This document shows, piece after piece, positions 1 through 34,403 of a DNA stretch of 34,403 nt; the stretch's first letter is position 1; each line of letters begins with the position of its first letter. Location of the stretch: IMG/VR virus record IMGVR_UViG_3300034175_000195, positions 1 through 34,403 of that record; one strand, 5' to 3'. This stretch comes from a virus. The translations under genes and the position numbers were made by a program. The notes below the pieces were generated by a model, which saw nothing but the letters and a program-made list of their open reading frames with translations, had not been told where the DNA came from and searched no databases.

Positions 1-1815
1 AGCCAGTGCCTCTGTAGCTCCCTGCCAGTTGGCCCACAACTCCGCACACTCGGCGTTGGCCTGCTGGTACTGGTCGGCCGCGTTACGGGTCTGGTGTTCT
101 AGCTCCTCAATCTCAGCCTCTAGCTCGGACATGCGTGCTGCGAGCTTGGCTTTTGAACGCGGCGTAGGGGCTGCCTGCCATGAAGCAACTGTCTGGCTGT
201 GTTCGGTTTCGAGTTGGTCTAGCCTAGCCTGCGCCTGCTGGCTGCCTAGTCGAAACCAACGCCGGTAAAGAGTCTCTAGCGCGGCCTCGTATAAAGAGTC
301 TGGCACTTCTTCCATTGCAGCCCGGTACTGAGGATCGCTGAGAACACGCGTACGCATTTCGGTGTATGCCCGCATAGAAGCCACGAGGGCTGCTCTGGCA
401 CGCTCAGGAGCGCGCCCCCGAACACTACCAGCAATCTCGTCAATCGTTGGTAACGTCTGGCCTAGGTAATCCTGTATCACTTCCACGAGTTGGGTTTGAT
501 GAACGCGGTAGGCCTTACATGGGCATTTGTCACGCTCACCCTTCCACGCGTTGTACGAGGAGCACAGGTAGGTTAATGGCCATGTATCGCGTGGCTTGTC
601 TTTGCGGTTGAGTCTGCTACCAACCATGTTGCCACTACAGTTGGCACAAACTACCAGCCCCGCAAAGATGTAACCGCCATTGACTGAGGCGCGTTTTGCT
701 TTGGGCAGCGCGTCTACTTTGGTCTGCACCTGCTGCCATAGCTCAGGGTTTACGATTGGGTCGAATAGCTCACGCTCGCTCATGATCCAATCTTTGCGGG
801 CATGGCGTTTAGGTTTGGCGTCACGCTCTTTTACCTGCCGCGCGCCATCAACAAACTCGCCATACGTGCCGCTGCTATAACGATTCCACGCGGGCCGTCC
901 AATGTATATCGAGTTGGTAAGTAGATCGCGTACAGTAATTGCGTGCCAGTGCGCAGAGTTGGGCGGCGGCGCTATCCCTTGCGTATTGAGTTGCCGAGCC
1001 AAAGTAGACGGCTTTATCTTCTCATTGGCCATCCGGTTAAAAATCATCCGAACTACGTCTAGCTTGGTTGTATCGAGCGTTGGCCGTAGTTGTAAAATGT
1101 CGTCCTTGTCAGCGGCCGGAAAGTTGTTAGGGCCGTCATAACGTGCACGTTGACCGTCTCGGCTGATCTTCACTCGTAATACGTTCTGCTGCTTTTTGAT
1201 CTGGCCATTAGACTTGACGGTTTTAACGTGGCCATTGAAGCCCTCAACCTGTACGCGCCACTGCTCTACAGGATCGCCAGCAGCATCTAACCGTACTGCT
1301 ACCACGTCCATAGCGTAAGGCACTTTGCCGCCCTGCCATTGTCCCTGCCGGGCTAGTAATTGTTTGCCCTCTAGCGCCCGTTCGCTTTTGCTTTGTACTT
1401 CTTTCTCTGAGGTTTCAGACGCCAACCCTGTTTGGAGAAACGAGCCAATATCACCGGCTGTTACTTCTCGCCCGTCGCAAGTGTAGAGGCGGCATTTGGC
1501 TAATCGTAACCTGTGGATCGTGGCGGCAGTCTCGTACTTGTCCCGACTCTCGCAACGGTCCTGCACATCAACGGCAATCCATTGAACTTTACCAGCATCG
1601 ACTAGCCGTAGAAGTCTCTGCCAGTCGGGGCGGTTAGCAGCATCAGCGCGGGTGTTGCCCTCATCGGCAAAGACATAGGCAGGGTCAACAGTAGCGCCAT
1701 TGCTTTGGAGCCAGCGTGTTAGCGTATCCTGCTGGCGTTTGGCATCCTGCAAATCGGTTGAAACGCGTTTGTAAGTTGCACCATTGCCGCTGAGGTTGAG
1801 TGTTGCCGTGGCCAT
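1..1815 (-). CDS. int: Large serine recombinase (phage integrase), C-terminus cut by window edge
   Basis: The frame is open for 605 codons from an ATG at 1815 to the window edge, with AGAGGT as ribosome site. The N-terminal resolvase domain begins YKRVSTDLQ, which puts the catalytic serine at residue 19, and continues with NRPDWQRLL and an arginine-rich VQDRCESR segment, as in this family. Residues about 200-320 form the 'Recombinase' domain (PYAMD, then RMIFNRMANEK, LNTQGIAPPP, and VRDLLTNSIYIGRP). A zinc ribbon follows at about residues 390-432 (CANC ... CPC), and then a long coiled-coil-like tail. This enzyme would catalyse attP x attB integration and, with a directionality factor, excision. 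It is the last gene of the leftward late block and is separated from it by a terminator. The missing 3' end should lie close to attL. Confidence 0.95.
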   Translation of the reverse strand, partial: MATATLNLSGNGATYKRVSTDLQDAKRQQDTLTRWLQSNGATVDPAYVFADEGNTRADAANRPDWQRLLRLVDAGKVQWIAVDVQDRCESRDKYETAATIHRLRLAKCRLYTCDGREVTAGDIGSFLQTGLASETSEKEVQSKSERALEGKQLLARQGQWQGGKVPYAMDVVAVRLDAAGDPVEQWRVQVEGFNGHVKTVKSNGQIKKQQNVLRVKISRDGQRARYDGPNNFPAADKDDILQLRPTLDTTKLDVVRMIFNRMANEKIKPSTLARQLNTQGIAPPPNSAHWHAITVRDLLTNSIYIGRPAWNRYSSGTYGEFVDGARQVKERDAKPKRHARKDWIMSERELFDPIVNPELWQQVQTKVDALPKAKRASVNGGYIFAGLVVCANCSGNMVGSRLNRKDKPRDTWPLTYLCSSYNAWKGERDKCPCKAYRVHQTQLVEVIQDYLGQTLPTIDEIAGSVRGRAPERARAALVASMRAYTEMRTRVLSDPQYRAAMEEVPDSLYEAALETLYRRWFRLGSQQAQARLDQLETEHSQTVASWQAAPTPRSKAKLAARMSELEAEIEELEHQTRNAADQYQQANAECAELWANWQGATEALA

Positions 1816-1841
1816 CCGTGTACCTCTGTAAGCGAGAATAA

Positions 1842-1870
1842 CCCCGCGCGGCTGTTGGGCCGTCGCGGGG
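1842..1870 (-). terminator. GC-rich terminator hairpin upstream of integrase
   Basis: The arms CCCCGCG (1842-1848) and CGCGGGG (1864-1870) pair, and CGG/CCG pairs further inside. On the minus strand the stem is followed by TTATTCT. It sits between the coiled-coil gene (stop at 1889) and the integrase start (1815), so late read-through into the integrase is probably reduced. Confidence 0.6.
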
Positions 1871-1888
1871 CTGTAGGTCGCACCAAAA

Positions 1889-2338
1889 TTATCCAACGTA
1901 TTTATAGGTTTTGCTACGCCCCTGCCCATCAGCCTTAATCGTGCCCTCGCCAATCTCAGTCGCAAAGAGAGTCATCATGCTAGGGTAACCAACGAGCTTC
2001 GAAAGCTCAGTGCCACCAATCGCCTTGCCCTTAGCCTGCTGCAAATGGGCCACAGCTTTATTTTTTTGATCGGTTGTATAGTCACCGGGTTTGTTGCCGC
2101 TCGATTTGCGAGGGCCACGAGTACCAGCCCCGCCCGACTTATGAGGAGCTAAGAACAAAGCAGGCTTGCCAGCGTCTTTTGCAAACTCGTTGTATTTGGC
2201 GAGCGCGTCATCAACAAACTTGCGTTGTTCGTTGGCCTCAGCTTCCGCTATCTCTGCGCGCTGATCTTCTAGCGCTTGCAGTTGCATACGTAGCTTGTCG
2301 CGCTCGGCGTTGAGTTGTTCTAATGTTTTCTTGGCCAT
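1889..2338 (-). CDS. Coiled-coil protein with C-terminal winged-helix-like segment
   Basis: This 149-residue protein starts at the ATG at 2338 (MAKKTLEQL), because GAGGG lies just upstream; a longer frame to 2404 has no such signal. Residues about 3-55 form a strongly charged coiled coil (LNAERDKLRMQLQALEDQ). A Gly/Lys-rich linker follows. The C-terminal 55 residues (AVAHLQQAKGKAIGGTELSK, then ATEIGEGTIKADGQGRSKTY) look like a small winged-helix DNA-binding fold. That layout resembles small nucleoid-binding or regulatory proteins. It lies directly upstream of the integrase, a position where a recombination directionality factor could sit, but nothing in the sequence proves that role. A similar coil plus winged-helix plan is seen in the protein at 28,437-29,105. 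Confidence 0.75.
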   Translation of the reverse strand: MAKKTLEQLNAERDKLRMQLQALEDQRAEIAEAEANEQRKFVDDALAKYNEFAKDAGKPALFLAPHKSGGAGTRGPRKSSGNKPGDYTTDQKNKAVAHLQQAKGKAIGGTELSKLVGYPSMMTLFATEIGEGTIKADGQGRSKTYKYVG

Positions 2339-2432
2339 TGGGTTGCCCTCAGTAGAGTTGCTACAGGGGCTACACCAGCCCCGTATAGAGGCATCTAACC
2401 GCATCTAGGGCTACACGTCAAGTTATAGTTTA

Positions 2433-3095
2433 CTAACGCCCCTGCTCACGGCTGGCCCTACTGCACTTACCACAGGGGTTACGAGGGGCAATAGCAGGTT
2501 GTGACGGGTTGGCTAGTCTCTCTGCCTCATGCTTCTCTGCCCGCGCTAGTGCCTCAGCTTTTCGCTCCTCAATCCAACGAGCCTGAGCCACGGTATATGC
2601 TTCAGCCCATTTCTTCTCAGCCAGTTTGTAAGCCTGCTGGCTGAGCCTGTGCAGGTGAGCGCGATGTTGAGGCGTCCAGTCGTCGTAGCTCGCCGTCTCA
2701 ATAGTCGCGCCACCAACAGCCACGTATGAGATTGGAGATATCAGGGGCAGGTGCAGTATGCCATTAGAGCAATCGAGCGCGGGATAAAGGGGGCTGAGCT
2801 TGCCATCATAAAGATGATAGCTCACAGGCTTGCCGCCGATCTCTTTGGGCAACTCTAAAGCCTCAGCCTGCCAAGCCTGTTGGTCGTGCAGCACGAGCAT
2901 TACGTCAATGTCCTTTGCATCAGTACGCGTGATGGCACTACCAGTAAGATAGACACCAGCCAAATGCTCAGAGTCGTAAACGCCAGCAGCAATAAGCGCC
3001 TGCTCGATCTCTGGCCATAGCTCAGGCACAGCCACGAGTACCGGTCCTGCACCCGTTTTGGTATAGACGTTTGCCAATGTTTCGATGTCGTTCAT
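2433..3095 (-). CDS. Nucleotidyltransferase-like protein (pol-beta fold, MNT type)
   Basis: This 220-residue protein has the signature of the minimal nucleotidyltransferase fold. GSA at residues 52-54 follows a hydrophobic strand (AGVYLTGSA), and DIDVML follows ten residues after GS, giving the metal-binding pair Asp62 and Asp64. A third acidic residue may be Asp in VSYHLYDG. Residues about 150-200 form a charged helix, and the tail carries a CGKCS pair that could bind metal. The ATG at 3095 has a strong AAGGGG ribosome site. It lies between the last tail gene and the integrase, in the late orientation, where phages often carry non-structural cargo. Relatives transfer nucleotides to tRNA, antibiotics or proteins, often as toxin partners; the substrate here is unknown. 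Confidence 0.7.
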   Translation of the reverse strand: MNDIETLANVYTKTGAGPVLVAVPELWPEIEQALIAAGVYDSEHLAGVYLTGSAITRTDAKDIDVMLVLHDQQAWQAEALELPKEIGGKPVSYHLYDGKLSPLYPALDCSNGILHLPLISPISYVAVGGATIETASYDDWTPQHRAHLHRLSQQAYKLAEKKWAEAYTVAQARWIEERKAEALARAEKHEAERLANPSQPAIAPRNPCGKCSRASREQGR

Positions 3096-3104
3096 TACGT
3101 CCCC

Positions 3105-4754
3105 TTAGCTGCTGCTGCTATTGCTGCTACTCGATTGGCTGCTCATGCTGCTACTGCTGTTGCTGCTGTAACTCGATTTACTGCTAGGAGTGCTCAGGCT
3201 GCTAGGGCTGCGGTTGTTGTTACTCGACTCAGAGTAGAGACGGGTATAACTCTCGGCCTCTCCCTCGCACGAGACAGACGCACTGCCACTAGTATTAGCG
3301 CTGCCCCTGTAAAAAGAGTAGTTGCCGCCGATATCTTCATCAGCACTGATAAAGTCTACGTACCATGAGTTTGCACCACTACCGCCACCGATTTGTACAA
3401 TCCACCTGCAACCTTGCTCGCCTTGCCCCTCACGAAATTGGCCAACAGAGATATATCGCGCAGTATACTGCTTCCAAGTGTTAAAATTGGTGTTGTTTTG
3501 AAATCCACCACCCGGTACGTAAACGTCATAAGGCTGCTGTACGTAAAATGACACACTGCCGCCGGAGCCAAACCCGCCACCCAATGACGCCTCTAGTCCG
3601 CTCTGTGTTTGAATCTTAATTGAGTTACCGTTAACGCTGGCGCTAACGCTCGTACTCAGCGTGGTGCAGAAATCATCGGCGTCAACATCGCCACAGGGCT
3701 GCTTACTTCTGCACTTGTTATCGAAAATCTCGATACTGCAATCGGCAGGCGCGTTTAGCTTGGCAGACATACCCGGTGCAGTAACAATGTAATCATCGCT
3801 GCCATCCTCATTTTCAGGGTCGTACTCCCAATCGTAGTCAATGTCGTATAGCTCCCCATCGTTACAACTTACCTGCACACCATTGCCGTAGTCATAATTT
3901 ACCTCATCGCTTTGGTCGCTGGTGTTGTGAGTTGGGCCTAAGTAGTACGGTTGAAATATCTGAGAAGTATTACCGCCGTGGCAATGCTCGCCAACAAACT
4001 GTAATCGTATCTCTAGTACACATTGCTGAGCAGAGTTACGTTGGCTGGCTGTCTCAATCCGAAGAATCCACGCGTTGGCATCGTAGTAGCGTTGTCCGTT
4101 GTAAGGGGCTGGCTTAAATAGCGTCGCGCGTTCACGCACGATTTGCCCGCTACTCTCACTCTCGCTGCTCACACTGGTAAACTCGCCAATGCTTTGGCTG
4201 CTCTGGCTAGACGCACTGCTTTGGCTGCTGGCGCTACTCTTACTGCTGGCGCTGCTTTGGCTCTGAGGAGCACTACTGCTGCTCAGCCCGTCCGTCTGGC
4301 TGCTGCTACTGCTGCTGTTGGTGCTGCTGCTACTGTCACTGCTAGTGCTGCTCAGGCTGCTGCTGCTACTACGGCTGCTGTCACTGCTGCTGCTAGCGCC
4401 GGGGCCGTAGCTTATCCACGTCATCGGTTGACAGTAATAGAAGTAACCCGGATTGCCAGCGTTGGTAAGTTGCAGGGTGGCCGATCCTGAGTACGTAACG
4501 CTCGCACCATTGGTATACTTAACAGGCACACTCCATGATACAACCGCCTCGCAAAACTCAGAGTATTTGCACGTAAACGCGTCTGTACGTCGGCAGGTGT
4601 TGTGGGGTTGACAGGTGCAGCAGTAATCAAACCCGTAGATCAAGTTGTTTAGCTCTACTGCACCATCAATCAACAGCAGAGCACCCCGCTCGTGGTCGGG
4701 GTGGCTGATGACTTTGGGGCCATGTTGTAATTCGTCGTAAGGCGTGCCCGGCAT
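3105..4754 (-). CDS. Ser-rich minor tail / tail-tip protein
   Basis: A 549-residue protein made of three parts. The N-terminal part (about 1-120) is cysteine-rich (CCTCQPHNTC, CKYSEFC) and probably folded. A linker of about 85 residues (about 120-205) is almost all Ser, with Asp, Gln and Ala. A folded region rich in Asn, Gly and aromatic residues follows, with a further set of cysteines and an acidic patch (DYDWEYDPENEDGSDD). The last 40 residues are again Ser-rich and end in SSSSNSSSS. It follows the other distal tail genes with only a few bases between, so a place at the tail tip or fibre base is likely. The Ser tracts are encoded mainly by AGC and AGT, giving a GCTGCTGCT-like pattern on the plus strand. 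No catalytic motif was recognised. Confidence 0.7.
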   Translation of the reverse strand: MPGTPYDELQHGPKVISHPDHERGALLLIDGAVELNNLIYGFDYCCTCQPHNTCRRTDAFTCKYSEFCEAVVSWSVPVKYTNGASVTYSGSATLQLTNAGNPGYFYYCQPMTWISYGPGASSSSDSSRSSSSSLSSTSSDSSSSTNSSSSSSQTDGLSSSSAPQSQSSASSKSSASSQSSASSQSSQSIGEFTSVSSESESSGQIVRERATLFKPAPYNGQRYYDANAWILRIETASQRNSAQQCVLEIRLQFVGEHCHGGNTSQIFQPYYLGPTHNTSDQSDEVNYDYGNGVQVSCNDGELYDIDYDWEYDPENEDGSDDYIVTAPGMSAKLNAPADCSIEIFDNKCRSKQPCGDVDADDFCTTLSTSVSASVNGNSIKIQTQSGLEASLGGGFGSGGSVSFYVQQPYDVYVPGGGFQNNTNFNTWKQYTARYISVGQFREGQGEQGCRWIVQIGGGSGANSWYVDFISADEDIGGNYSFYRGSANTSGSASVSCEGEAESYTRLYSESSNNNRSPSSLSTPSSKSSYSSNSSSSMSSQSSSSNSSSS

Positions 4755-5435: not shown

Positions 5436-6314
5436 TTACACCGCAAACAGGCTGCCCATTGGAGTTTTAAGGTAAGGCTTTAGCGTCACCACCGCTGGCT
5501 CATCAGAGGCAGAGGCTTTGGCCTTGCCGAGATTGTCTAGGGGCCACGGCGTCTCTACTTTCTTCAGCGGGTTACCCTTGGCAATGTCTTTAAGAGCGCC
5601 GTTAGTGGCTTTCTCTTTGTAGCCGCGCGAGTCAATATCTTGGTTGAATCCGGCAGGCTCGTACTCGCCCTCTAGGGTAAGTACCTTAAAGCTAAAGCCT
5701 GCCTCCTGTTGTACCTCACTAAGATCAAGTGACGTAGTAAGCAACGTGCCGATTGCGTACGTCTCTCCCTCAATCGTAACGGCATCCTGATTAAGTTTGT
5801 TCATCAGCCCCTCGTAGGTAGCCCGCGTTTTGATGGCTTCTACGTTGCGGGTGAGCTTCCATGTTACTTTGGCCCTGTTGCGTTGCGGGTATTGCGGGAA
5901 CGGCTCACCAGCAGTAGTAACGGCAGCCTTTCCCTCAGAGTCTTTGAAATAGTCAACCCGCTCTACTTTGGAGTTGGTCGAAAACTTGGTTTTACCCACA
6001 GGAGACGTGCCGAGCCACGTATTGTAGGTGTAACCAACCTCGACCGTGATTGTGTCGTAACTGTCGCCCTCGTACTTTGGCGTGTATGAAGTAGCCAGCG
6101 TGTTGGCATGGTAAGGGGTATCGTCGTACGGGCTGTTGTAAGCAGGCAAGCCCGCCTCAGCTTTGTTGATAATCGGCCACGATAACGGAACCTGTTTATC
6201 CTCGTCGTTGCTAAGTTCTATTTTGAATACGCGTGTAGCTTCCACCTTGCCCATATCTTCGGTGTAGCTGGCCGCATTGTAGCTTTCGACTGTCGCAATC
6301 ACTTCTATTGCCAT
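5436..6314 (-). CDS. Tail protein directly downstream of tape measure
   Basis: A 292-residue protein whose ATG at 6314 overlaps the tape-measure stop codon in a TAATG junction, so the two are translationally coupled. It begins with beta-strand-rich sequence (MAIEVIATVESYNAASYTED) and carries repeated Lys/Glu/Tyr-rich strands with no clear catalytic motif. In siphoviruses the gene after the tape measure usually encodes the distal tail protein that caps the tube, and this position and size fit. The assignment rests on gene order, since I do not recognise the fold from sequence. Confidence 0.7.
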   Translation of the reverse strand: MAIEVIATVESYNAASYTEDMGKVEATRVFKIELSNDEDKQVPLSWPIINKAEAGLPAYNSPYDDTPYHANTLATSYTPKYEGDSYDTITVEVGYTYNTWLGTSPVGKTKFSTNSKVERVDYFKDSEGKAAVTTAGEPFPQYPQRNRAKVTWKLTRNVEAIKTRATYEGLMNKLNQDAVTIEGETYAIGTLLTTSLDLSEVQQEAGFSFKVLTLEGEYEPAGFNQDIDSRGYKEKATNGALKDIAKGNPLKKVETPWPLDNLGKAKASASDEPAVVTLKPYLKTPMGSLFAV

Positions 6315-8521
6315 TAGAGTACGTCCCCGCCGCTAGTTTGCTTTACTGTCTTTCTGTCAATGCTTTCTGCGGCCGTTCGAATGCCTTTAACGTCCTCAGC
6401 CATAGCTTTTAGAATCGTGTTGATTACATCTTGTGCACTCTGAGTATTGCTCGCTGTAGGTGCGCCGCCTGCCGTGGCCTTGGCCACCTCAGCCGTAGCA
6501 GCCCCCATAGCAGGAGTGGCCGCGTATCTCAGGGCCATCGACTCGGCCGAGCCTGTGTAGATCGTGCTGCCGCTCTTTGCCCCGCCGCTGTCACTCTCAG
6601 CCGCGCCACCACCAGCAGGAGCACCAGCAGCCGCACTGGCTGGAGCGCCAGCAGGCTTAGGAGCTTGACCGGGTTTGGGTGTCTCGCCGGGTTTCAGAGG
6701 CTTGCCAAGATCGGCTAGCGAACCCGGCAGCCCCTTGATGCCGCCAGCCAGTGCACCACTCTGCCGCTGAGCATCGGTCACACTGTTGGCCCACGAGTTG
6801 GTTAGGTTGTTGGCGAGTGCGTCTCGCTGGCCCTGCAATGACTGCTCTAGCGCCCCTGCCTGCCGTTGCGCAATCTGTGGCAACTCGCTGAGAGTCGATT
6901 TGAAGCCGTCCGTTAGAGGCGTCCACAGGTCACCAAAGCTCACAGCGCCCGACAGCAACCCCGGTAGGTTACTCATAACCTTTACGATGTTGTCGGCAAG
7001 GTTGCTAAACGTGGTCGTGGCAAGGTTGCCAATGTCGGTAAAGATGTTTCCTAGGTTGCTGCCGAGCCACGTTGCATAGGCGGGTATAACCGTGCCAAAA
7101 ACGTACTCAGTCTCGTTACCAGCGCGGACGATGCCGAGCGCGTAGCTCGTTAATGCAAGCTCGGCAATATCACGCCAGTTGGCAATAGCCCACGAGGCAG
7201 AAACAAAACCAACCTGCACAAGATCGGCTAACCACTTAATAGTAGAGCCTACCTGCTGTGATGTCGTTTGAACGCGTCCGCCGGATGACTCGGCCGAGTC
7301 TGCAAAGAAACTCCACACCCAACCAATAGCAGTACCTACGCCATCAGCCACCGTGGTTACCAAATCCCATACGCCTTTAGCGACGTTGGCAACAACCGTA
7401 TACCACGTTACCACACCGTCAGCGATATAACCGGCAATCCAATCAATGTTACTGCCGAGCCACGAGGTAGTAGACTGCCATGCACTCTGCACCCATCCCA
7501 TTGCAGTAGTTACAGCACCAGAGACGGCAGCCATGCCCGCGTAGGCATAAGGGGCAAGGTTGGCCCATGCGTTTTGTAAGTACGATACAGTGCCCGCTAC
7601 AACGGCTTTGATGGCAGGCGTCCACCGGTCAATAACACCCTGCACGGCTGCCCCCACGCTGCCGACAAAGTTACCTAGTCCCGTTACTGCACCTTTAAGG
7701 TTGAACACGTCAATGACTTTGGCAGCTAATCCCGCCATTGTCATGCTGAAATTGTCAGAGAGAGTAGACAGCAGGCCGCTCATAGTGCCCGACTGTTTGG
7801 CCATCATGCCGCCAAACTTGCCACCCTCTTTAGTAAGATCGCCAAAAGCCTTTTCGAGATTGGCAAAAGTAATCTTACCCTCGCTGGCCATCTTCTTTAC
7901 TTCACTCTCAGAGACGCCCAACTGCTTAGCGAACTCCTGTATAACCGGGATACCTCTACCAACGAGTTGGTTGATATCTTCGGCGTACAGCGTGCCTGCC
8001 GTTTTGGCTTTACCGAATAGCTCTGACAACGCACCAATAGGAGCACCCACACCGGCGGCAATGTCACCGATTTGGCGTAGGCTGCCCTGCACGTCTTTGG
8101 CATCAACACCAAACGCCACGAGCTTACGGGCGGCATCGGCCAACTCTGGAAACTCAAAAGGGGTAGAGGCAGCAAACGACTTTAGATCGGACAACATCTT
8201 AGACGCCGCTTCACCCGATCCTAGCAACGTCTCAAAAGCTACCTGTGTCGTTTCAAGGCTGTTGGCCAGCGAGAAGCCACTAGAAAGGCTACTGCCAATC
8301 GTACTCAGGCCAGAACTAAATGCAGACGTAATGCCCTGCACGGCAGTGAACGCAAGCGACGGGCTGAGGGCAGAGAGAAATGATTTACCAACGCCGCTCA
8401 GCGTGCTGCTGATGCCGCTTACTAGGCCAGTGCTGATGCTCAGCGCCTCACGAGCACCGGTAGCAATACCGGCCGTGTTGATGTCCATTAGGACGGATTG
8501 CCTAGATGCTACGCCAGCCAC
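6314..8521 (-). CDS. Tail tape measure protein
   Basis: A 735-residue protein. The N-terminal 280 residues match the tape-measure N-terminal domain: GSGEAASKMLSDLKSFAAS, STPFEFPELADAARKLVAFG, LFGKAKTAGTLYAEDINQL, then GRGIPVIQEFAKQLG. A long helical and hydrophobic middle with regularly spaced Trp follows, then a Pro/Gly/Ala-rich hinge (KPGETPKPGQAPKPAGAPAS) and a short helical C-terminus. The ruler relation of about 1.5 angstrom per residue predicts a tail near 110 nm. The start chosen is a GTG at 8521 because AAGGGG lies eight bases upstream; an internal ATG at 8488 is the alternative. It is co-transcribed with the chaperone pair upstream and overlaps the next gene. Confidence 0.9.
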   Translation of the reverse strand: MAGVASRQSVLMDINTAGIATGAREALSISTGLVSGISSTLSGVGKSFLSALSPSLAFTAVQGITSAFSSGLSTIGSSLSSGFSLANSLETTQVAFETLLGSGEAASKMLSDLKSFAASTPFEFPELADAARKLVAFGVDAKDVQGSLRQIGDIAAGVGAPIGALSELFGKAKTAGTLYAEDINQLVGRGIPVIQEFAKQLGVSESEVKKMASEGKITFANLEKAFGDLTKEGGKFGGMMAKQSGTMSGLLSTLSDNFSMTMAGLAAKVIDVFNLKGAVTGLGNFVGSVGAAVQGVIDRWTPAIKAVVAGTVSYLQNAWANLAPYAYAGMAAVSGAVTTAMGWVQSAWQSTTSWLGSNIDWIAGYIADGVVTWYTVVANVAKGVWDLVTTVADGVGTAIGWVWSFFADSAESSGGRVQTTSQQVGSTIKWLADLVQVGFVSASWAIANWRDIAELALTSYALGIVRAGNETEYVFGTVIPAYATWLGSNLGNIFTDIGNLATTTFSNLADNIVKVMSNLPGLLSGAVSFGDLWTPLTDGFKSTLSELPQIAQRQAGALEQSLQGQRDALANNLTNSWANSVTDAQRQSGALAGGIKGLPGSLADLGKPLKPGETPKPGQAPKPAGAPASAAAGAPAGGGAAESDSGGAKSGSTIYTGSAESMALRYAATPAMGAATAEVAKATAGGAPTASNTQSAQDVINTILKAMAEDVKGIRTAAESIDRKTVKQTSGGDVL

Positions 8522-12841: not shown

Positions 12842-13522
12842 TTACTTATCACGCAAACCTCTAGCGATACTCTGCCGCTTCAAGTCTGCTAGTTTGATCT
12901 TCATTAACTGTGGCCTGTAATCCTTTTTTTGCTCTACAGATTTTTCTGTAGGCTCAGGGATAGGCTCAGCACTCTGGTTTACATCGACATTTACAGCGTC
13001 AGCCAGCAGGCCAGCAGTAGCACCCTCAAAACCGGGCGCGTCTACAATGCTAATCTCAGGGTAGCTAAACGATTCAACGTCAAACACCGGGTACAAGTTG
13101 CCCTCTACCTTGCCAATGCGACCACGCGCAGACTTGGCCCCAACAGAGCTAGCCTTTAGGTCGCCGCGCTTGAGTAAGTAGGCTGTATCTCGGCCCAACT
13201 GAGTATCAGGTAAATCAACTTCGAACTGTACGCCGCCCTCAACCTCAAATATGCGGGCCGTGCCGTTACTCGTACGGCCTAGAATCGCACCGGGCTGGTG
13301 TTGGTAACGGATAATTACGTCGGCAGTCGGCTTGGCGCTACCAGCAGCAAAACGCCACTGCACCACTTGCCCATTAGGCAACTTGCGAGGCTCTGAGAGT
13401 TGACCAAAGACTATACCCAGCCCCCGTGCTGTCATCGGCTTGCCGTCCACCGCCGCTGCCACGCTGGCAAACGTAACCGGCTCTGGTACGTCGCTCGAAA
13501 ACTCGTATAGCTCATCACTCAT
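12842..13522 (-). CDS. Prohead maturation protease (HK97 U35 type)
   Basis: A 226-residue serine protease. The expected landmarks are visible: a Gly-rich start (ARGLGIVFGQLSEPRKLPNG), the catalytic His75 in IIRYQHQPGAILG, and a Ser125/Ser126 pair in GDLKASSVG. The late strand is ISIVDAPGFEGATAG. The final 60 residues form a helical, charged tail of the kind thought to bind the capsid scaffold. Its ATG at 13522 sits on an AGGAGG ribosome site and overlaps the portal stop, so it is coupled to portal synthesis. It would cut the capsid delta domain during head maturation. Confidence 0.9.
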   Translation of the reverse strand: MSDELYEFSSDVPEPVTFASVAAAVDGKPMTARGLGIVFGQLSEPRKLPNGQVVQWRFAAGSAKPTADVIIRYQHQPGAILGRTSNGTARIFEVEGGVQFEVDLPDTQLGRDTAYLLKRGDLKASSVGAKSARGRIGKVEGNLYPVFDVESFSYPEISIVDAPGFEGATAGLLADAVNVDVNQSAEPIPEPTEKSVEQKKDYRPQLMKIKLADLKRQSIARGLRDK

Positions 13523-15024
13523 TACAGAACCTCCTGCACGAGCTTGGCCAAGTCGGCTGGCTCACTGGTGCTCACTTGTCGTTTGATTGCGTCTGCGTAA
13601 CGCTGAGCCACACGCTCGGCATCAATGCCCGCGTGGCCGAGCTTCTGAGCACAGGCGTTGAATGCCTGTAGCGCCTGCACCACGTAGCCCGCCTGCTGAT
13701 CTGCAAAGACGTTGGCTTGTGGCACGCTCAGAGGCTTGCTCAGTGCCTTGCTGGCCTTGGCCTCCACACGAGCTACAGCAGCGTCTAGGACGGGCTGCAA
13801 TACAGCCAATGCGTCAACGGGTTGGCTGGCGTGCTCGGCCTCCTGTGGCTGCTCAGGGGCAGGCAGTGCCTTGGCTGCTGGCTTCTCGCCTGCTGGCTGC
13901 TCACGCATGGCGTAGCTCGGATCGCGGTAACCGTCGCCACCATCGCGCGGCCCCTTGCCCACCCAATCACGGCCCTCGTTGTCGTTAAGGATGCCAGCAG
14001 TAACGAGCGCGGCCGCTGCCGTTGTTGCCGTCTCCCAATCGCCACGCTCTAGGTAAGACAAATCACATTCGATGTAATAGCCCTGTGCCTGCTCCTCTGG
14101 TGTAAGTAGTTTGTTGGTAAGCTCCTCATCAAGTTGCTCAGTCCAGTAACGCAAAACGTACCGCACAACTTCACTACCCATAGCAGCAATCGAGCTAAAG
14201 CCTTGGCCGCTGAGCTTGCTAAGCAGGTGCTGTGGCACTCCCCAAAAACGGCTAAACTCCTCAATCAAAAACTGCCGAGTTTCGATAAGCTGAGCATCAA
14301 TGGCAGACGTGGTAAGTGGTACATACTCTGCACCAAACGGCAGCACAGGAGCGCTGCCCGCATTATCAATACCCTTAAATGAATCAGTAAGGGTTTTTTG
14401 CATCGTGGCTAGTTGAGCATCGGTCAGCGGTACAGGTACTTTGATGTAACCAGCGAGGTGGAAGCCATCGCGTAGAAACTTGCGGGCCAACTCCTCTGCG
14501 TTGATGGCTGCCTCAATCGTGCGACGGGCTAGCTCCACAATACTTACGCCGGAGTAACCGTCTAACGACAGAGTTTTGATATGGATTACGTCAAAGTACC
14601 GGTACTTATTCTTGCCAACCTCGTAGATCGGCTCGCCCATTACTACACCGGCTTCGGGATCATCGGCATTGGCAATGCTGATAGTCGCACTGTTCATGGG
14701 GAGATTGTGCAGAGATATGCTGCCTGCCGCGCGGCGGATTGCCATAAGGCCATCACCACAGAGTTGTACATGAGCCAACAGAGTACCAAAGCCAACCGTT
14801 GCATTAGTCCACGGGTTGATACGGTAGCTGAGTACGCCATCTAATGAGTGCTCGACAATCTTGCCTTTTAGCTTGACGTGTTTTGGTAGAACTGAGGGCG
14901 CGGCAGACAGGAACGTAACCGATGCTTTGACACCAGCCACCGTTAGTGCCGAGTGTTCATTCACTACCACAGCATTGGGGCTAAATGCCGCAATATCGCC
15001 AGTTACATTTACTGTATAAATCAA
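13522..15024 (-). CDS. Portal protein, HK97 type
   Basis: A 500-residue protein. The core reads as an HK97-like portal: FDVIHIKTLSLDGYSGVSIV, then a helix (EAAINAEELARKFLRDGFHL), LAGYIKVPVPLTDAQLATMQ, the VPL...D.QLIETRQF helix, and RFWGVPQHLLSKLSGQGFSS. The C-terminal 130 residues are a Pro/Ala/Gln-rich linker followed by helices (VQALQAFNACAQKLGHAG). It would form the dodecameric ring at the packaging vertex. The start is a TTG at 15024, one base beyond the large-terminase stop, with only a weak ribosome signal, so translation may depend on the upstream gene. The N-terminus is slightly shorter than usual. Confidence 0.9.
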   Translation of the reverse strand: MIYTVNVTGDIAAFSPNAVVVNEHSALTVAGVKASVTFLSAAPSVLPKHVKLKGKIVEHSLDGVLSYRINPWTNATVGFGTLLAHVQLCGDGLMAIRRAAGSISLHNLPMNSATISIANADDPEAGVVMGEPIYEVGKNKYRYFDVIHIKTLSLDGYSGVSIVELARRTIEAAINAEELARKFLRDGFHLAGYIKVPVPLTDAQLATMQKTLTDSFKGIDNAGSAPVLPFGAEYVPLTTSAIDAQLIETRQFLIEEFSRFWGVPQHLLSKLSGQGFSSIAAMGSEVVRYVLRYWTEQLDEELTNKLLTPEEQAQGYYIECDLSYLERGDWETATTAAAALVTAGILNDNEGRDWVGKGPRDGGDGYRDPSYAMREQPAGEKPAAKALPAPEQPQEAEHASQPVDALAVLQPVLDAAVARVEAKASKALSKPLSVPQANVFADQQAGYVVQALQAFNACAQKLGHAGIDAERVAQRYADAIKRQVSTSEPADLAKLVQEVL

Positions 15025-15025
15025 C

Positions 15026-16702
15026 TTACGTACCCCATTTAATCATTGATACTTTGCCGTCCCACGCCTTTAGCGCTGCTGCCTGTACCTCTGCCTCATT
15101 TAGTTTCGACACATTGCGACGTAATACCTCTGATATGGCTGAGATAATCGCTACGATGCCGTCAATCTTCAGGTGACGCCTGCCACCCTCGTACTTATCT
15201 GCGCCCGGTTTTTTGGGGTAGAGGTTGTGCCATTTATCAATCCCGAAATCTACGTTACCCGCTTGCCAAGTAAGGCAGTCGTTACGAGCAATGGCAATGC
15301 GTCCACTCTTTAGCCGTGCCATCAACTCATAGCTCGGGTTGCTCAGCGTTAGGCTGTTCTGCTTCACTTCAATACAGGGAACGCCGCCCGCCTCAACACG
15401 CGGAATAACTTCACTGATATACGCGCGGTCGTAGGTAAGGCATTGCACGTCATACTTTTTGCTCAGCTTTATTATGTAGCGTGCTAGTTTTTCTTTGCAG
15501 GCTAAGTCAATAGTTGGCCGCTCGAATAGGTACACTTGCTTTTTGCCTACCCATGTACTGTAGTCGATGCCTTTTTTCTGGTAGTCCCGCGCAGTGTCGG
15601 CAATCATCCAATGTTTAGCTTTGACGGCCCACATATCCCCTTTAGGGTCATAGAACACCATCGCAAGCGCGGTCATATCATCACGTCTGCTGCCGTCTAG
15701 GTGCAGCACGCAAGGCCATTTCTCGTAGCCCTCTGGCAGGTCGGCGGGTTTCTTAGTGCAGTTGGCCCAATGCGTTTGGTCTAATGAGTGGCTTGTATCT
15801 TTAACCCACTGGCTCAGGTAGTAGCGCCGATACTTGGCCTCCTCAGCAGGATTGCTCATCGCTTTGGCTAACTCAATCTCTAACTGATCGGCGCGGCACA
15901 ACTCACCAACAGCAGGATTGCAGGCCAATGCCGTATTGATATCTCGCCAATCCGAAGACTCAGGGGCAGCATAGATAACCGGCAGAAAAGACTCGTCCTC
16001 TACCGGCTCCCCCTTGGCGTTCTGCTCTAGGATGCGTACAGCTTTGTCGTGTTGCTCCCACGCTACGCCTGTACGAGACGGGCCAGCGTTTGTGGCAATC
16101 CACATGATAGGTGCTGCACCTACACGCTTACCCATTGCACTAGTAAGCGCGTCAAAAAGCTCACGGTCTTTGTGCTCATGCAATTCATCTACCAAAACGC
16201 ATGAGGGACGTAGGCCCGCTTTACCCTCGCCCTTGCCTGTGAGAACTTCCCAATAACTTGCATCGTCGGGATAATCCTCGTCGGCCAATCGTATAATCCG
16301 CTGCTGTAGCTCTAGTACAGCTTTGACTCGCGGACTATTGCGTATGATGGCTTTAGCAGGCCGGAACACTGCCTTAACTATCTGGCCGAAGTTTGCGGCA
16401 GCGCAATAGACCTGATTATCTAGCGACTCACACCAGCCCGGTAGAGTATGAAAAATGCCAATGCAATCGAGTAGTCCAGACTTGCCGTTACCCTTACCAA
16501 TGCAAATGTATACATAGCGAAAACGCCGCTCCCCATTGTCGCGCCGCTTCCAACAATACGCCATGTCGATTACATCAATTTCCCATTGTAGAAAACGCCA
16601 CGGCTTACCCTCTGGCGTGTATAGATACTTCTCGCAAAGCTCAATAAACCGCTTGCCCGCCGCCGGGTCATAGTAATACTTATCGCACTCAACTAGCTTC
16701 AA
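15026..16702 (-). CDS. terL: Terminase large subunit (HK97/phi31 type)
   Basis: A 558-residue packaging motor. The ATPase half has Walker A GKGNGKS at residues 69-75 behind YVYICI, and Walker B VLVDE at 169-173, followed by LHEH. A coupling motif-like IMWIATNAG lies near residue 200. The second half holds acidic nuclease residues (CVLHLDGSRRDDMTALAMVF, later YDRAYISEVIP and a final DGIVAIISAISE). Order and spacing match the terminase_1 family. The start is a TTG at 16702, three bases after the small-subunit stop, so coupling is likely. Together with the small subunit and the HNH gene it forms a cos-type packaging set. Confidence 0.93.
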   Translation of the reverse strand: MKLVECDKYYYDPAAGKRFIELCEKYLYTPEGKPWRFLQWEIDVIDMAYCWKRRDNGERRFRYVYICIGKGNGKSGLLDCIGIFHTLPGWCESLDNQVYCAAANFGQIVKAVFRPAKAIIRNSPRVKAVLELQQRIIRLADEDYPDDASYWEVLTGKGEGKAGLRPSCVLVDELHEHKDRELFDALTSAMGKRVGAAPIMWIATNAGPSRTGVAWEQHDKAVRILEQNAKGEPVEDESFLPVIYAAPESSDWRDINTALACNPAVGELCRADQLEIELAKAMSNPAEEAKYRRYYLSQWVKDTSHSLDQTHWANCTKKPADLPEGYEKWPCVLHLDGSRRDDMTALAMVFYDPKGDMWAVKAKHWMIADTARDYQKKGIDYSTWVGKKQVYLFERPTIDLACKEKLARYIIKLSKKYDVQCLTYDRAYISEVIPRVEAGGVPCIEVKQNSLTLSNPSYELMARLKSGRIAIARNDCLTWQAGNVDFGIDKWHNLYPKKPGADKYEGGRRHLKIDGIVAIISAISEVLRRNVSKLNEAEVQAAALKAWDGKVSMIKWGT

Positions 16703-22459: not shown

Positions 22460-22648
22460 CTAAACCTGTCAGCTTACGCAACCGTGTTGAGAGAGCGAGA
22501 CCGTGCGGCTGGCCGTTCACAGAGTATCAATAGCCACAATTCCAGTAAATGATTACGAGTGAGATATCACGCCCATAAAGTCGAGAGTTTTTGATTGACA
22601 TGCAAGACGCAGCAAGTCAAACTCACGCCTTTTATCAATGGGGGCTGC

Positions 22649-23575
22649 ATGAATGCTATCTACAGACACCGTAAATGCTTTGTAGTTCTTGTGACGCTAT
22701 TGCTCGTTTCAACAGTCTGCCAAGCAGAAGAGCAGACGCGTCGAACATTTATCGACTTGGCGGGGAAAAAGGAAAAGACACGGCATTTTGTCGTGTTCGT
22801 TGCCCGTAATGATACGATTAACGGGCACGCGTTTGTTGTTTGGGGAGTTGAGGACGATAAGAAGCAGATAAGCAGCCAAGCAGCCTTTGGGCAATATGCA
22901 GATAAGCTCGATGCCGGCGTGCTCTTATTGCGCAAAGTTCCGGGGGGTATCGCAAATGAGGCTGTGCGCGGTACGGCTCCGGGGGACAGATTGCAGGTTA
23001 TCGTCCGAGTGAATGCAGAGGCCTACAAGGCGTCTCAAGACATTCTACATACTTGGGAAAAGACTTCTGACTTCCAACTGTTGAAAAAGGATTGCGTAAC
23101 ATTTTCTATGGAGATTGCGAAAGCGGTTGGCTTGGATGTTCCAGAGCGAGATATCACGAATATATTGCCGTGGTACTATGTCGATACCTTAGCAGAGGCC
23201 AATACAGACAAGGCTGCCGAGACGGCGAAGGCAATGAACAAACCTCATCCTGCCCCTGTAAAAAAGAAAAAGCGTTCTTTTTGGAGAAGTGTCGGCAACG
23301 GGTTCAAAAAAGTCGGCAAAGGAATCGGTTGGGTGGCGGACAAAATCTCGGATATCGTTCCCAGTGACGAAGGTAAACCAAGCCCCAACGGAAATGGCAA
23401 TGGCAATGGCAATGGCAATGGCAATGGTAATGGTAATGGTAATGGTAATGGTAAAGGTAAAGTGATTGAGCAAGATGAATATGTTTTAGTCTTTCCAGAT
23501 GATGTTATAAGTCCGTCACCCGAGTTCATTGCTCAGCAGAAAAAGACGAACGCCTCGAATAAGAAGAATAAATAG
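22649..23575 (+). CDS. Secreted papain-fold (permuted NlpC/P60-like) protein with amphipathic tail
   Basis: A 308-residue protein, on the opposite strand from the late genes. The ATG at 22649 is chosen because GGGGG lies upstream and because it gives a clean Sec signal peptide (basic start, hydrophobic core about 10-21, likely cut after CQA at residue 26). The folded domain has His60 in TINGHAFVVWG and Cys149 in KKDCVTF. His-before-Cys is the order of permuted papain-like enzymes such as the YiiX/YaeF and LRAT groups. A cationic amphipathic stretch (SFWRSVGNGFKKVGKGIGWV) and a run of Gly-Asn pairs follow. Base composition is lower in GC than the late genes. Likely a lysogeny-expressed accessory protein; an endolysin role is less likely. 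Confidence 0.72.
   Translation: MNAIYRHRKCFVVLVTLLLVSTVCQAEEQTRRTFIDLAGKKEKTRHFVVFVARNDTINGHAFVVWGVEDDKKQISSQAAFGQYADKLDAGVLLLRKVPGGIANEAVRGTAPGDRLQVIVRVNAEAYKASQDILHTWEKTSDFQLLKKDCVTFSMEIAKAVGLDVPERDITNILPWYYVDTLAEANTDKAAETAKAMNKPHPAPVKKKKRSFWRSVGNGFKKVGKGIGWVADKISDIVPSDEGKPSPNGNGNGNGNGNGNGNGNGNGNGKGKVIEQDEYVLVFPDDVISPSPEFIAQQKKTNASNKKNK
23390..23460 (+). repeat. Hexanucleotide tandem repeat (Gly-Asn)n
   Basis: Repeats of GGCAAT and then GGTAAT run in tandem inside the secreted-protein gene and encode about ten Gly-Asn pairs. A unit of six bases keeps the frame, so slippage would change only the linker length. The switch from C to T in the third position midway suggests two separate expansion events. 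Confidence 0.9.
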
Positions 23576-31913: not shown

Positions 31914-32120
31914 TCACCCCTTCCGCGCTCGTCCCTCTCGCTTGGCCTTACGTGCACGCTCAGGGTCGCTCCAATACTGCCGAGCCTTGCTGGCCCGACG
32001 TGCAGCCCTGTAAGCCTCTGAGCTTGCGTGGCGCTGTCGATGTCGGGCACTCCTAACGCAAGCCTGCTGGCGTCGTCTTTCGTCCTGTTCTGCTGGGGTT
32101 TCGTACGCAAACGTGTACAC
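31914..32120 (-). CDS. Small very basic protein at the attachment junction
   Basis: A 68-residue Arg/Ala/Glu-rich protein: VYTFAYETPAEQDERRRQQA, then AYRAARRASKARQYWSDPER. It could bind nucleic acid. The start is a GTG at 32120 with no clear ribosome site, and it lies about 28 bases from the estimated junction with host DNA. In the free phage the gene may begin further upstream, in what is now the left end. It overlaps the end of the interrupted host frame. Confidence 0.5.
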   Translation of the reverse strand: MYTFAYETPAEQDERRRQQACVRSARHRQRHASSEAYRAARRASKARQYWSDPERARKAKREGRARKG

Positions 32121-32928
32121 GCGGGTAAGCAGGGTTTGCGTGGCTGTGGATCGCGTCGTCGATCTTGAAAAACCCGTCGGCCCGTTCCTTTGCTGCGCCC
32201 CGGCAGTCGGACCAGAGCGGGCAGCCGGCGCATTCGTGCTCGGGCGGGCAGTGTTCGATCACGTCGAGCAGGCACCAGCGCACCAGCACGCGGCCGGTCT
32301 CGACGGCGTCATCGACGAGCTGCCGCATTAGGCCGAACGGCTTGTGCAGCGTGGACAAGGCTTCGATCGAGCCGCGCATCGGCTTCACGCCCGCCTCCTC
32401 GTCGCGGTCGGTCATGCCGCGGCTGCGCGTGGTCAGCTGGGCGGCCTCCCAGACCAGCGGGTCGAACAGTTCGATCTCGTCGCAGCGCACCTTCTGCACA
32501 CGCAAGCCGCGTACGCTGCGCTGGCTTTGCGTCAGCACGGCGGCGGTGGATTTGTTCTTCAGGATTACCTTGCGGGCGGTGGATTTCGGATTGGCGATGA
32601 TGTCGTCGCCGAGCCGCTCCAGGTGTGGGAGCAAGTGTTCCCACATACGTAGGCTCTGCTCCAGACTGCCGCCGAGGATGCGGACGGCGACGCCGGGCTT
32701 GTGCAACAGGTCGAGTAGCGTGACGACGGCGGCGAGGCTGGTTTTCCCGCCGCCGCGCGGGGCCCAGACGATCTGGTCGGCGCTCGGCTCGAAGTAGGCG
32801 CGGCAGACGTATTCGAACGGCGCGTTGTGGCCCGGGCAGACCGCTTTGCGCGGAATGTGCAGGCCGGTGTGGGTGACGATCCACGCGTGAAGTGCGTCAG
32901 GCGTGAGGCAGGGATCGGAAACGGACAT
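32053..32928 (-). pseudogene. Host terminase-like ATPase gene interrupted by the prophage
   Basis: This 291-residue frame starts at an ATG at 32928 with AGGAG upstream. The ATPase half is intact: a VWAPRGGGKTS P-loop, LLDLLHKPGVAVRILGG, KNKSTAAVLTQSQRSVRGLR and a Walker B-like VRCDEIELFDP. It continues to a Cys cluster (CPPEHECAGCPLWSDC) and IDDAI. The last 31 residues look phage-derived, and the C-terminal nuclease half is missing, presumably left of the prophage. Codon use and GC match the host flank. Terminase-like genes outside prophages are known in some high-GC genomes. Here the gene supplies attB. Confidence 0.7.
32115..32165. other. Probable attR region (phage/host junction)
   Basis: To the right of about 32,150 the minus-strand frame reads host-type terminase sequence ending FFKIDDAI. 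To the left it runs into HSHANPAYPRV, unrelated to the family, and the base composition falls. A serine-integrase crossover is therefore placed within these 50 bases. The partner attL lies outside the window, so the exact two-base core cannot be set. Confidence 0.55.
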
Positions 32929-33032: not shown

Positions 33033-33280
33033 GGGTCAGGGTGAGGGCCGCGCGTGAGAACGGCCTAAACATCGAACGGGCGGCGCTCGGCAGATATCAC
33101 CACGGAGGCACAGAGGCACGGAGAAGAAAGAACAAGGAATGGCCTTTCTTAATCTTCTCCGTGTCTCCGTGCCTCCGTGGTGATATCTGCTCTGCCCACC
33201 GGACCGGTTGCCGGGTGCGCCCGACGACGTGAGCGGGTAGGCGCTTCCACATCGTTGGTCGTCGGCCCTCACCCTAACCC
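33033..33280. repeat. Outer inverted repeats bounding an intergenic element
   Basis: GGGTCAGGGTGAGGGCCG (33033-33050) and its inverted copy (33263-33280) match in 17 of 18 positions. They enclose the palindromic element at 33,090-33,190 and the intergenic region between two host genes. The pair may be a mobile non-coding unit or two copies of a dispersed repeat. Confidence 0.6.
33090..33190. repeat. MITE-like palindromic element
   Basis: Two 37-base arms (33090-33126 and 33154-33190) match in inverse order with two mismatches, around a 27-base centre. The arms begin GCAGATATCACCACGGAGGC. CACGGAGGCACGGAG-type palindromes of this kind are dispersed in several high-GC genomes. It gives spurious small frames on both strands. 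Confidence 0.85.
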
Positions 33281-33831
33281 TCTCCCGTGGGTACACAGGA
33301 GAGGGGACCAGAGGGCGTCGCGTGATCTTGAAGCGTGATCGTGCGCCAGAAGTAGATCGCCTCGTCGCTTGTCAGCGGATCGGCGCGGGTAAAGCCGCTG
33401 TGTTCGAACATGGGGTGGGCTCGGCCCATGCGGGCGGCGGCTTCGATGTAGGGCGTGGGGCAGGCGGCGCAGAGGCGGCGGATCAGAGCGCTCGACAGGC
33501 CGAGGCTGCGGAACTGCGGGTGCACGATCACGCGGCTGATCGTGCGCAGGTTCACGTTGACCCAACGCAATCTTTGGCCGAACTTCATCGGGCGCAAGCC
33601 GAAGACGCGGTGGCGGGTGCGGTTCAGGGCGGACGGGTAGCTTAGGACCGCGACGCCGACCGTGCGGGGCGGGCCGTCGTCGGGCAGCCAGCGGGCGGCG
33701 ACCACGGCGGCCCACGTGGCGGGACGCAGGCCCACGTAGTGGAAGCGTTCCAGCGCCGCGTAGTCGCCGCGCGTGCCGGGTGTCAGTTCAAGACGGCCGG
33801 GAAGGAAATGGGGGCGGTTTTGTGTTATCAT
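33274..33831 (-). CDS. GNAT family N-acetyltransferase, host
   Basis: A 185-residue protein from an ATG at 33831; a TTG at 33843 is also possible. GNAT hallmarks are visible: a start-side strand, then FHYVGLRPATWAAVVAARWL, VGVAVLSYPSALNRTR, the central strand VNLRTISRVIVHPQFRSLGL with the acetyl-CoA loop (QFRSLGLSSALI), and AAARMGRAHPMFEHSGF. The substrate is unknown. The last codons and the TAG lie in a dispersed repeat (33,278-33,305), so the C-terminus was probably altered by its insertion. It is divergent from the zinc-ribbon gene and collinear with the terminase-like gene. Confidence 0.82.
   Translation of the reverse strand: MITQNRPHFLPGRLELTPGTRGDYAALERFHYVGLRPATWAAVVAARWLPDDGPPRTVGVAVLSYPSALNRTRHRVFGLRPMKFGQRLRWVNVNLRTISRVIVHPQFRSLGLSSALIRRLCAACPTPYIEAAARMGRAHPMFEHSGFTRADPLTSDEAIYFWRTITLQDHATPSGPLSCVPTGEG
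33278..33305. repeat. Repeat hairpin overlapping the GNAT 3' end
   Basis: CCCTCTCC (33278-33285) pairs with GGAGAGGG (33298-33305). It is joined to the outer inverted repeat at 33,263-33,280 and reaches into the acetyltransferase coding sequence, supplying its last codons. It may serve as that gene's terminator or RNA 3' end. Confidence 0.7.
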
Positions 33832-33869
33832 GTCTCGCACCAATTCGTGTGTTTGCGTCAGGTCGTGCC

Positions 33870-34403
33870 ATGTCTGAAGAAATCATTTGTCCGGATTGTG
33901 GGGGCGTAATCGGCGGCGAGCCGGGCAGCGGCCGCGCCGTTTGCCGCTGCTTCGAGCCGCGTCGCACCGTCGTCGCCCCGCCCGCGCCGCCGTCGGACCC
34001 GGTCACAGACCACACGGAGCTGAACCAGAAGCTCTGCCGCATCTGCAGCCGCGATTTGCGCGGGCACCGGCGGCTGAAGGACTCGCGCGGCTACATCTGC
34101 CTCGACTGCGACGCCGCCGAGCGCGGCGTGCCGCCGGCGGGCGTGGAGCAGGACCTGAGCCTGATCCCCTGCCCCGAGTGCGGCCGCAAGCTGAAGCCCG
34201 AGGGCATCACCACGCTGAACGGCGCGGTGATGTGCAAGCGCTGCGTCGCGGAGTTCAAGGAGCTACGCAAGTACAAGGCCCCGCCGCCCGGCCTGGAGAT
34301 TCACAAGGAAGCCGAAAAGCAGTCGCTGCGGAACCTGCTGATCCTCGCCGGCGTGCTGATGCTGATCATGCTGCTGGCTTGGCTGGGGTGGATCGGGCAG
34401 TAA
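33870..34403 (+). CDS. Zinc-ribbon protein with C-terminal membrane anchor, host
   Basis: A 177-residue protein; the ATG at 33870 (MSEEIICPDCGG) has AGGT upstream, and a longer frame to 33780 is less likely. It has three zinc-type sites: CPDCGG with CRC, CRIC with CLDC, and CPECGR with CKRC. The linker between the first and second is Pro/Ala-rich. A single membrane span near residues 157-174 (LLILAGVLMLIMLLAWLGWI) closes it. GC is high and codon use is host-like. It is divergent from the GNAT gene with 38 bases between. Role unknown; a membrane-bound metal-binding or RNA-polymerase-type ribbon protein are possibilities. Confidence 0.8.
   Translation: MSEEIICPDCGGVIGGEPGSGRAVCRCFEPRRTVVAPPAPPSDPVTDHTELNQKLCRICSRDLRGHRRLKDSRGYICLDCDAAERGVPPAGVEQDLSLIPCPECGRKLKPEGITTLNGAVMCKRCVAEFKELRKYKAPPPGLEIHKEAEKQSLRNLLILAGVLMLIMLLAWLGWIGQ

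Follow-up and report, generated by a model that had tools for sequence, protein, structure and literature searches.

A prophage ending inside a terminase ATPase gene, with signs of nesting in a phage-derived packaging cassette

The window analysed here (IMG/VR virus record, 34,403 bases) is best read as holding a temperate tailed phage that was integrated via a large serine integrase into the terminase (TerL) ATPase gene of a phage-derived chromosomal cassette, so that the prophage would lie nested within what is left of another viral element. A probability of about 0.68 is attached to this reading. Left of the junction with the flanking DNA, the window is an integrated temperate tailed phage of complete appearance, ~32 kb long and with 50-54% GC. 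The presence of genes for a serine integrase, a TerL, a portal protein and a tape measure protein (Table 1) bears out the prophage call of the initial annotation of this DNA. The integrase, of which 655 aa fall within the window, is encoded at the end of the prophage opposite to the junction. In IMG/VR, the prophage TerL has only remote relatives (24-28%), so none of them provides a sister prophage with flanks. Two other phage proteins stand out by their composition: that encoded at 3105-4754 has long low-complexity stretches rich in Ser, and that encoded at 22595-23575 has a (GN)n stretch.

Table 1. Coordinates of the features discussed in the window and, in the last two lines, in related loci.
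Feature	Position	Strand	Remarks
Large serine integrase (Resolvase + Recombinase + Zn ribbon)	1..1965	-	3' end lies outside the window; attL predicted immediately left of 1
Prophage tape measure protein	6314..8521	-	
Prophage portal protein	13522..15024	-	
Prophage TerL, full-length (ATPase + nuclease)	15026..16702	-	Unrelated to the cut ATPase
Short putative phage ORF	31914..32120	-	Bounds the right end of the prophage; no family
Foreign 31-residue tail + stop, not terminase	32053..32148	-	Similarity and GC3 change
Prophage/flank junction interval (putative attR)	32121..32148	.	Bounded by the end of similarity and the GC3 drop (32149) and by the start of the nearest phage ORF (32120)
Interrupted TerL ATPase gene	32149..32928	-	260 codons remain, with Walker A, DE, coupling motif and Cys cluster intact
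MITE/REP-like hairpin of CCACGGAGGCACAGAGGCACGGAG	33090..33190	.	38-nt arms, 95% complementary; between the GNAT and cut ATPase genes
GNAT acetyltransferase, PHROG_886 type	33274..33843	-	PHROGs E=2e-13; upstream neighbour of the cut ATPase gene
Divergent zinc-ribbon membrane protein gene	33870..34403	+	Probably chromosomal; beyond the GNAT gene
Split-terminase example (nuclease, TerS-like HTH, ATPase-only TerL)	L033:642-1142, 1190-1645, 1952-2920		
Non-coding element examples	L033:3355-3600, L032:10759-11004, L037:2115-2360, L040:10940-11185		

The interrupted gene is a TerL ATPase up to the residues IDDAI (32149). It forms the 5' part of a 291-aa frame on the minus strand, with an ATG at 32928, a stop at 32053 and an AGGAG 5' of the start; the frame and the ribosome-binding site are intact, and there is no nonsense mutation 5' of the junction. 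Walker A (APRGGGKT, from 32763), Walker B with the catalytic Glu (DEIE, from 32481) and a coupling-motif-like STLH (from 32355) follow one another in the TerL order and are kept across the family alignment, and a Cys cluster (C..CPLWSDC) is also present. The ORF has no match in Pfam or NCBIfam, and its matches in PHROGs are TerL families with modest E values (phrog_9, 1.3e-4; phrog_7579, 2.8e-4). Tblastn and profile alignments connect it with full-length TerLs (L004-L009, L091-L119 and that of phage Mvi-JY20, a relative of 553 aa), and further relatives are found in viral contigs. A profile of the full-length relatives matches D6E TerL (E=1.8e-7) in the nuclease part of the latter. At the structural level, the 12 best PDB matches of the AlphaFold model are all terminases (Z 6.2-7.3; T4, P74-26, HK97, T7); the model itself is poor (pLDDT 55), and the fold match is therefore taken as supporting evidence. 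The cut gene resembles the TerLs of D6E, P74-26, T4 (gp17) and SPP1 (G2P) in its ATPase motifs and in its fold matches to TerL ATPase domains. Unlike known TerLs, it breaks off where the linker begins, and no nuclease domain is visible in the window, where tblastn found no RNase H-fold nuclease outside the prophage's own TerL. Scans of viral sequences with single proteins (the cut ORF, the GNAT and the integrase) gave no matches, the plasmid collection held no relative of the cut ATPase, PADLOC made no defence assignment for the cut ORF or the GNAT, and Rfam had no match anywhere in the window.

The nature of the interrupted locus can be approached from the 2.2-kb flank, in which the GNAT-ATPase cassette has ~65% GC. 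The GNAT matches a gene of the SSU5/nickie type whose annotation reads 'ABC-type ATPase fused to a predicted acyltransferase'. When viral contigs were scanned with a GNAT alignment, a TerL was found within ~6 kb in 59 of the 60 loci with a PHROG_886-type GNAT, usually in the order ABC-GNAT-TerS-TerL, although these loci are mostly close kin and the 59 are not independent events. In phages of the SSU5/nickie type, the gene order is ParB, ABC, GNAT, TerS, TerL, portal. What the window shares with this module is a PHROG_886 GNAT gene that precedes TerL in the same orientation. The SSU5/nickie TerL is of a different, fused subfamily (E=0.03 between the window and SSU5 TerL), and in known phages the GNAT family is tied to a TerL subfamily other than that of the window. 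No PHROG_886 match was obtained among 37 records with relatives of the window's ATPase, and a search run without a positive control found no window-type GNAT in 297 genomes of the phylum of G001, a Syntrophales MAG. Neither an ABC or ParB gene nor a capsid gene of a second element is visible within the flank. On the strength of the GNAT-TerL linkage in 59 of 60 loci, the flank is best taken for a phage-derived packaging cassette in which the prophage is nested, and the MITE/REP hairpin together with the divergent zinc-ribbon gene suggests that this cassette is probably chromosomal and possibly a remnant.

The same flank bears on another explanation, according to which the ATPase is a domesticated host gene of other function, with the GNAT as its partner, that served the phage as a chromosomal attB. 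The motifs and the ribosome-binding site are intact and codon usage is host-like up to the break, the MITE-like repeat and the membrane gene suggest a chromosomal setting, and the short flank shows no other viral gene, all of which speaks for it. However, the GNAT family belongs to a phage packaging module, and all recognisable relatives of the ATPase are located in viral contigs or in phage-like islands that also encode nuclease, TerS-like and ParB proteins, which makes domestication unlikely. The proposal of the initial annotation that a prophage occupies a host terminase-like gene is upheld in so far as the prophage ends inside a TerL-type ATPase gene, but the PHROG_886 GNAT next to it speaks for viral packaging machinery and not for an ordinary host gene. 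Of the two origins considered there for the interrupted gene, a remnant phage or a conserved host gene, the adjoining GNAT favours a remnant of another phage, and the host-gene option is less favoured.

The position of the break is sharply defined. Similarity to ~60 relatives, which go on with [TS].KR..S..[TA]W..E.LC..PS.EGLIY.EFD, stops exactly at ..DGFFKIDDAI (32149), and GC3, which is 0.75-1.0 in the codons up to this point, falls to 0.55 and 0.50 in the next two blocks. This is in agreement with what had been noticed from the letters alone, that is, a terminase-type ATPase with P-loop, Walker B-like strand and Cys cluster whose frame turns foreign after IDDAI, where base composition drops. 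When eight relatives are aligned with it, the window can be followed through ..ADGFFKIDDAI, with no recognisable match in a single residue beyond. The final 32 codons of the frame (32148-32053) are a chance extension and no terminase. Since similarity and GC3 end at 32149 and the putative phage ORF starts at 32120, the junction falls within ~28 bases. A perfect 8-bp inverted repeat surrounds it (ACGCAAAC at 32105-32112 and GTTTGCGT at 32134-32141), for which the chance expectation, calculated from the repeat density in the window, is 0.05; this repeat is suggestive, fitting a serine-integrase site without proving one. That the junction is an assembly chimera of a phage contig and a chromosomal contig has to be considered for a metagenome-type virus record, but it appears quite improbable, as the integrase lies at the far end, as in an integrated phage, and there is a single abrupt change, placed where the leftmost ORF of the flank meets the rightmost ORF of the phage. 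A break caused by an IS insertion or a deletion and not by this phage's integrase, with the phage end elsewhere, finds a parallel in a related ATPase gene (L081:10699-10815) broken at the homologous codon, after IDDA and thus in nearly the same place, by a sequence in which AAATTGACCCC motifs recur in IS-like fashion, but it is highly improbable here given that the ORF list of the window shows no recognisable transposase at 31.1-32.1 kb and that composition stays phage-like up to ~32.1 kb.

The form of the gene before its interruption can be judged from its closest relatives, which were drawn from one genome-collection scan, from the 297-genome sample of the phylum of G001 and from IMG/VR. ATPase matches were present in 6 of the 297 sampled genomes, several of them with multiple copies. 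The closest relatives are 40-48% identical to the window over the whole ATPase, and nearly all are ATPase-only genes that end in ..GLIYKEFDxxxHVV and a stop, ~45 residues past the window's break. It follows that the window's gene is truly cut, near its likely natural end. The initial annotation had held that the same short gene in a related strain without a prophage would speak against an insertion; a short gene does exist in relatives without a prophage, but it is ~45 residues longer than the window's piece, so this objection is borne out only by half. Its expectation that the nuclease half of the same gene would be found leftward has become doubtful, as the nearest relatives are ATPase-only without any prophage and mostly have their nuclease in a separate gene upstream. 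This separate gene encodes ~165 aa with invariant D16, D75 and HH..D151..RYF. Pfam Terminase_6C is matched by 7 of 29 separate nucleases (best 3.9e-5), and an AlphaFold model (pLDDT 91) has its best PDB matches in the large-terminase nucleases of D6E, SPP1, P22 and G20c. The nuclease gene is located upstream on the same strand, 0.5-3.8 kb off, in 46 of 62 ATPase-only loci, often with a TerS-like HTH gene between the two. Many of the remaining loci are on contigs too short to show a nuclease; L038, L039, L041, L044, L058, L069 and L104 have at least 2 kb upstream and no nuclease match. An intron as the cause of the ATPase-only form was rejected, there being no Rfam intron at this place and the nuclease being upstream, not downstream.

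The split-terminase loci (L032-L090), a little-described group, comprise viral and MAG loci, uncultured and mostly of Syntrophales type. The window's ATPase has in common with them the Cys cluster and the C-terminal DGFxxIxDAI stretch. In contrast to their TerS-like HTH and separate nuclease genes, the 1.5 kb that the window holds upstream of its ATPase shows a GNAT and no nuclease. In a tree built with IQ-TREE on a reduced sequence set, the window and the clade are separated from full-length TerLs with support of 94.1/90, and the clade without the window has 71/71; the window's ATPase falls outside the split-terminase clade, as its sister on a long branch. This sister position implies that the gene may have been nearly complete when it was cut: it may have been a standalone ATPase, now without its last ~45 codons, or a fused TerL. 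Some actinobacteriophage annotations list ATPase and nuclease as separate genes, so the split itself is not to be called unprecedented; literature searches found no paper on TerLs whose ATPase and nuclease are encoded separately, the nuclease gene being the upstream one. TerL inteins have been described (PMC7156551).

Under the preferred reading of a prophage nested in a packaging cassette, the serine integrase of the ~32-kb phage would have inserted it into the 3' part of the ATPase gene of a cassette in which a GNAT gene precedes the TerL ATPase gene, and the junction would be the product of integrase-mediated recombination. The last ~45 codons would be found in the left flank, and a nuclease domain might possibly be there too. 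The cassette would be a decayed or immobilised element and not an active provirus. The pre-insertion product would have acted as the ATP-driven DNA-pumping motor of the cassette's element, loss of the C-terminal linker would disable this motor while the prophage stays, and the prophage would package with its own, unrelated TerL. A more ambitious proposal places the cut gene, as a deep branch, in the split-motor lineage and takes the conserved DGFxKIDDAI codons as the target of the integrase; the resident motor would then be disarmed by lysogeny and re-armed by precise excision. This proposal is regarded as a long shot. If the presence of a phage in the packaging ATPase of another element is true, lysogeny would be a switch on the particle formation of a competitor. 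The TerL motor and nuclease are textbook domains of one protein, and the split-terminase clade bears directly on the coupling of packaging and cleavage.

Nested prophages are already known. In E. coli, prophages integrated into prophages have been described; there, the attB sites within the outer prophage stem from the host chromosome (Nakamura et al. 2021, PMC8112680). Like that case, in which a complete prophage sits inside another at a specific attB, the window would represent a prophage in a viral element; unlike in that case, coding sequence of a packaging ATPase is disrupted here, and the integrase belongs to the serine recombinases. The word 'terminase' is absent from the text of that paper. 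The split-terminase clade and its adjoining non-coding element are the more unusual by-products of this analysis. This element lies ~0.5 kb 3' of the split ATPase gene, is conserved in 23 loci, has an invariant core GGACCA-GGGGAGTCGCCGGTCCATAAAAAATCTCCCC with several compensatory pairs around it, and corresponds to no Rfam family; it may be a structured RNA beside a packaging gene. A second terminase-nuclease-like paralogue is encoded in the same elements (L071:4397-4984 and L066:3644-4174), the L066 copy being 25.7% to the first nuclease (E=7e-6). Finally, the MAG G001 has eight split-ATPase matches on separate contigs (C102-C366), some of them frameshifted, which suggests that it contains several related elements, of which some have decayed.
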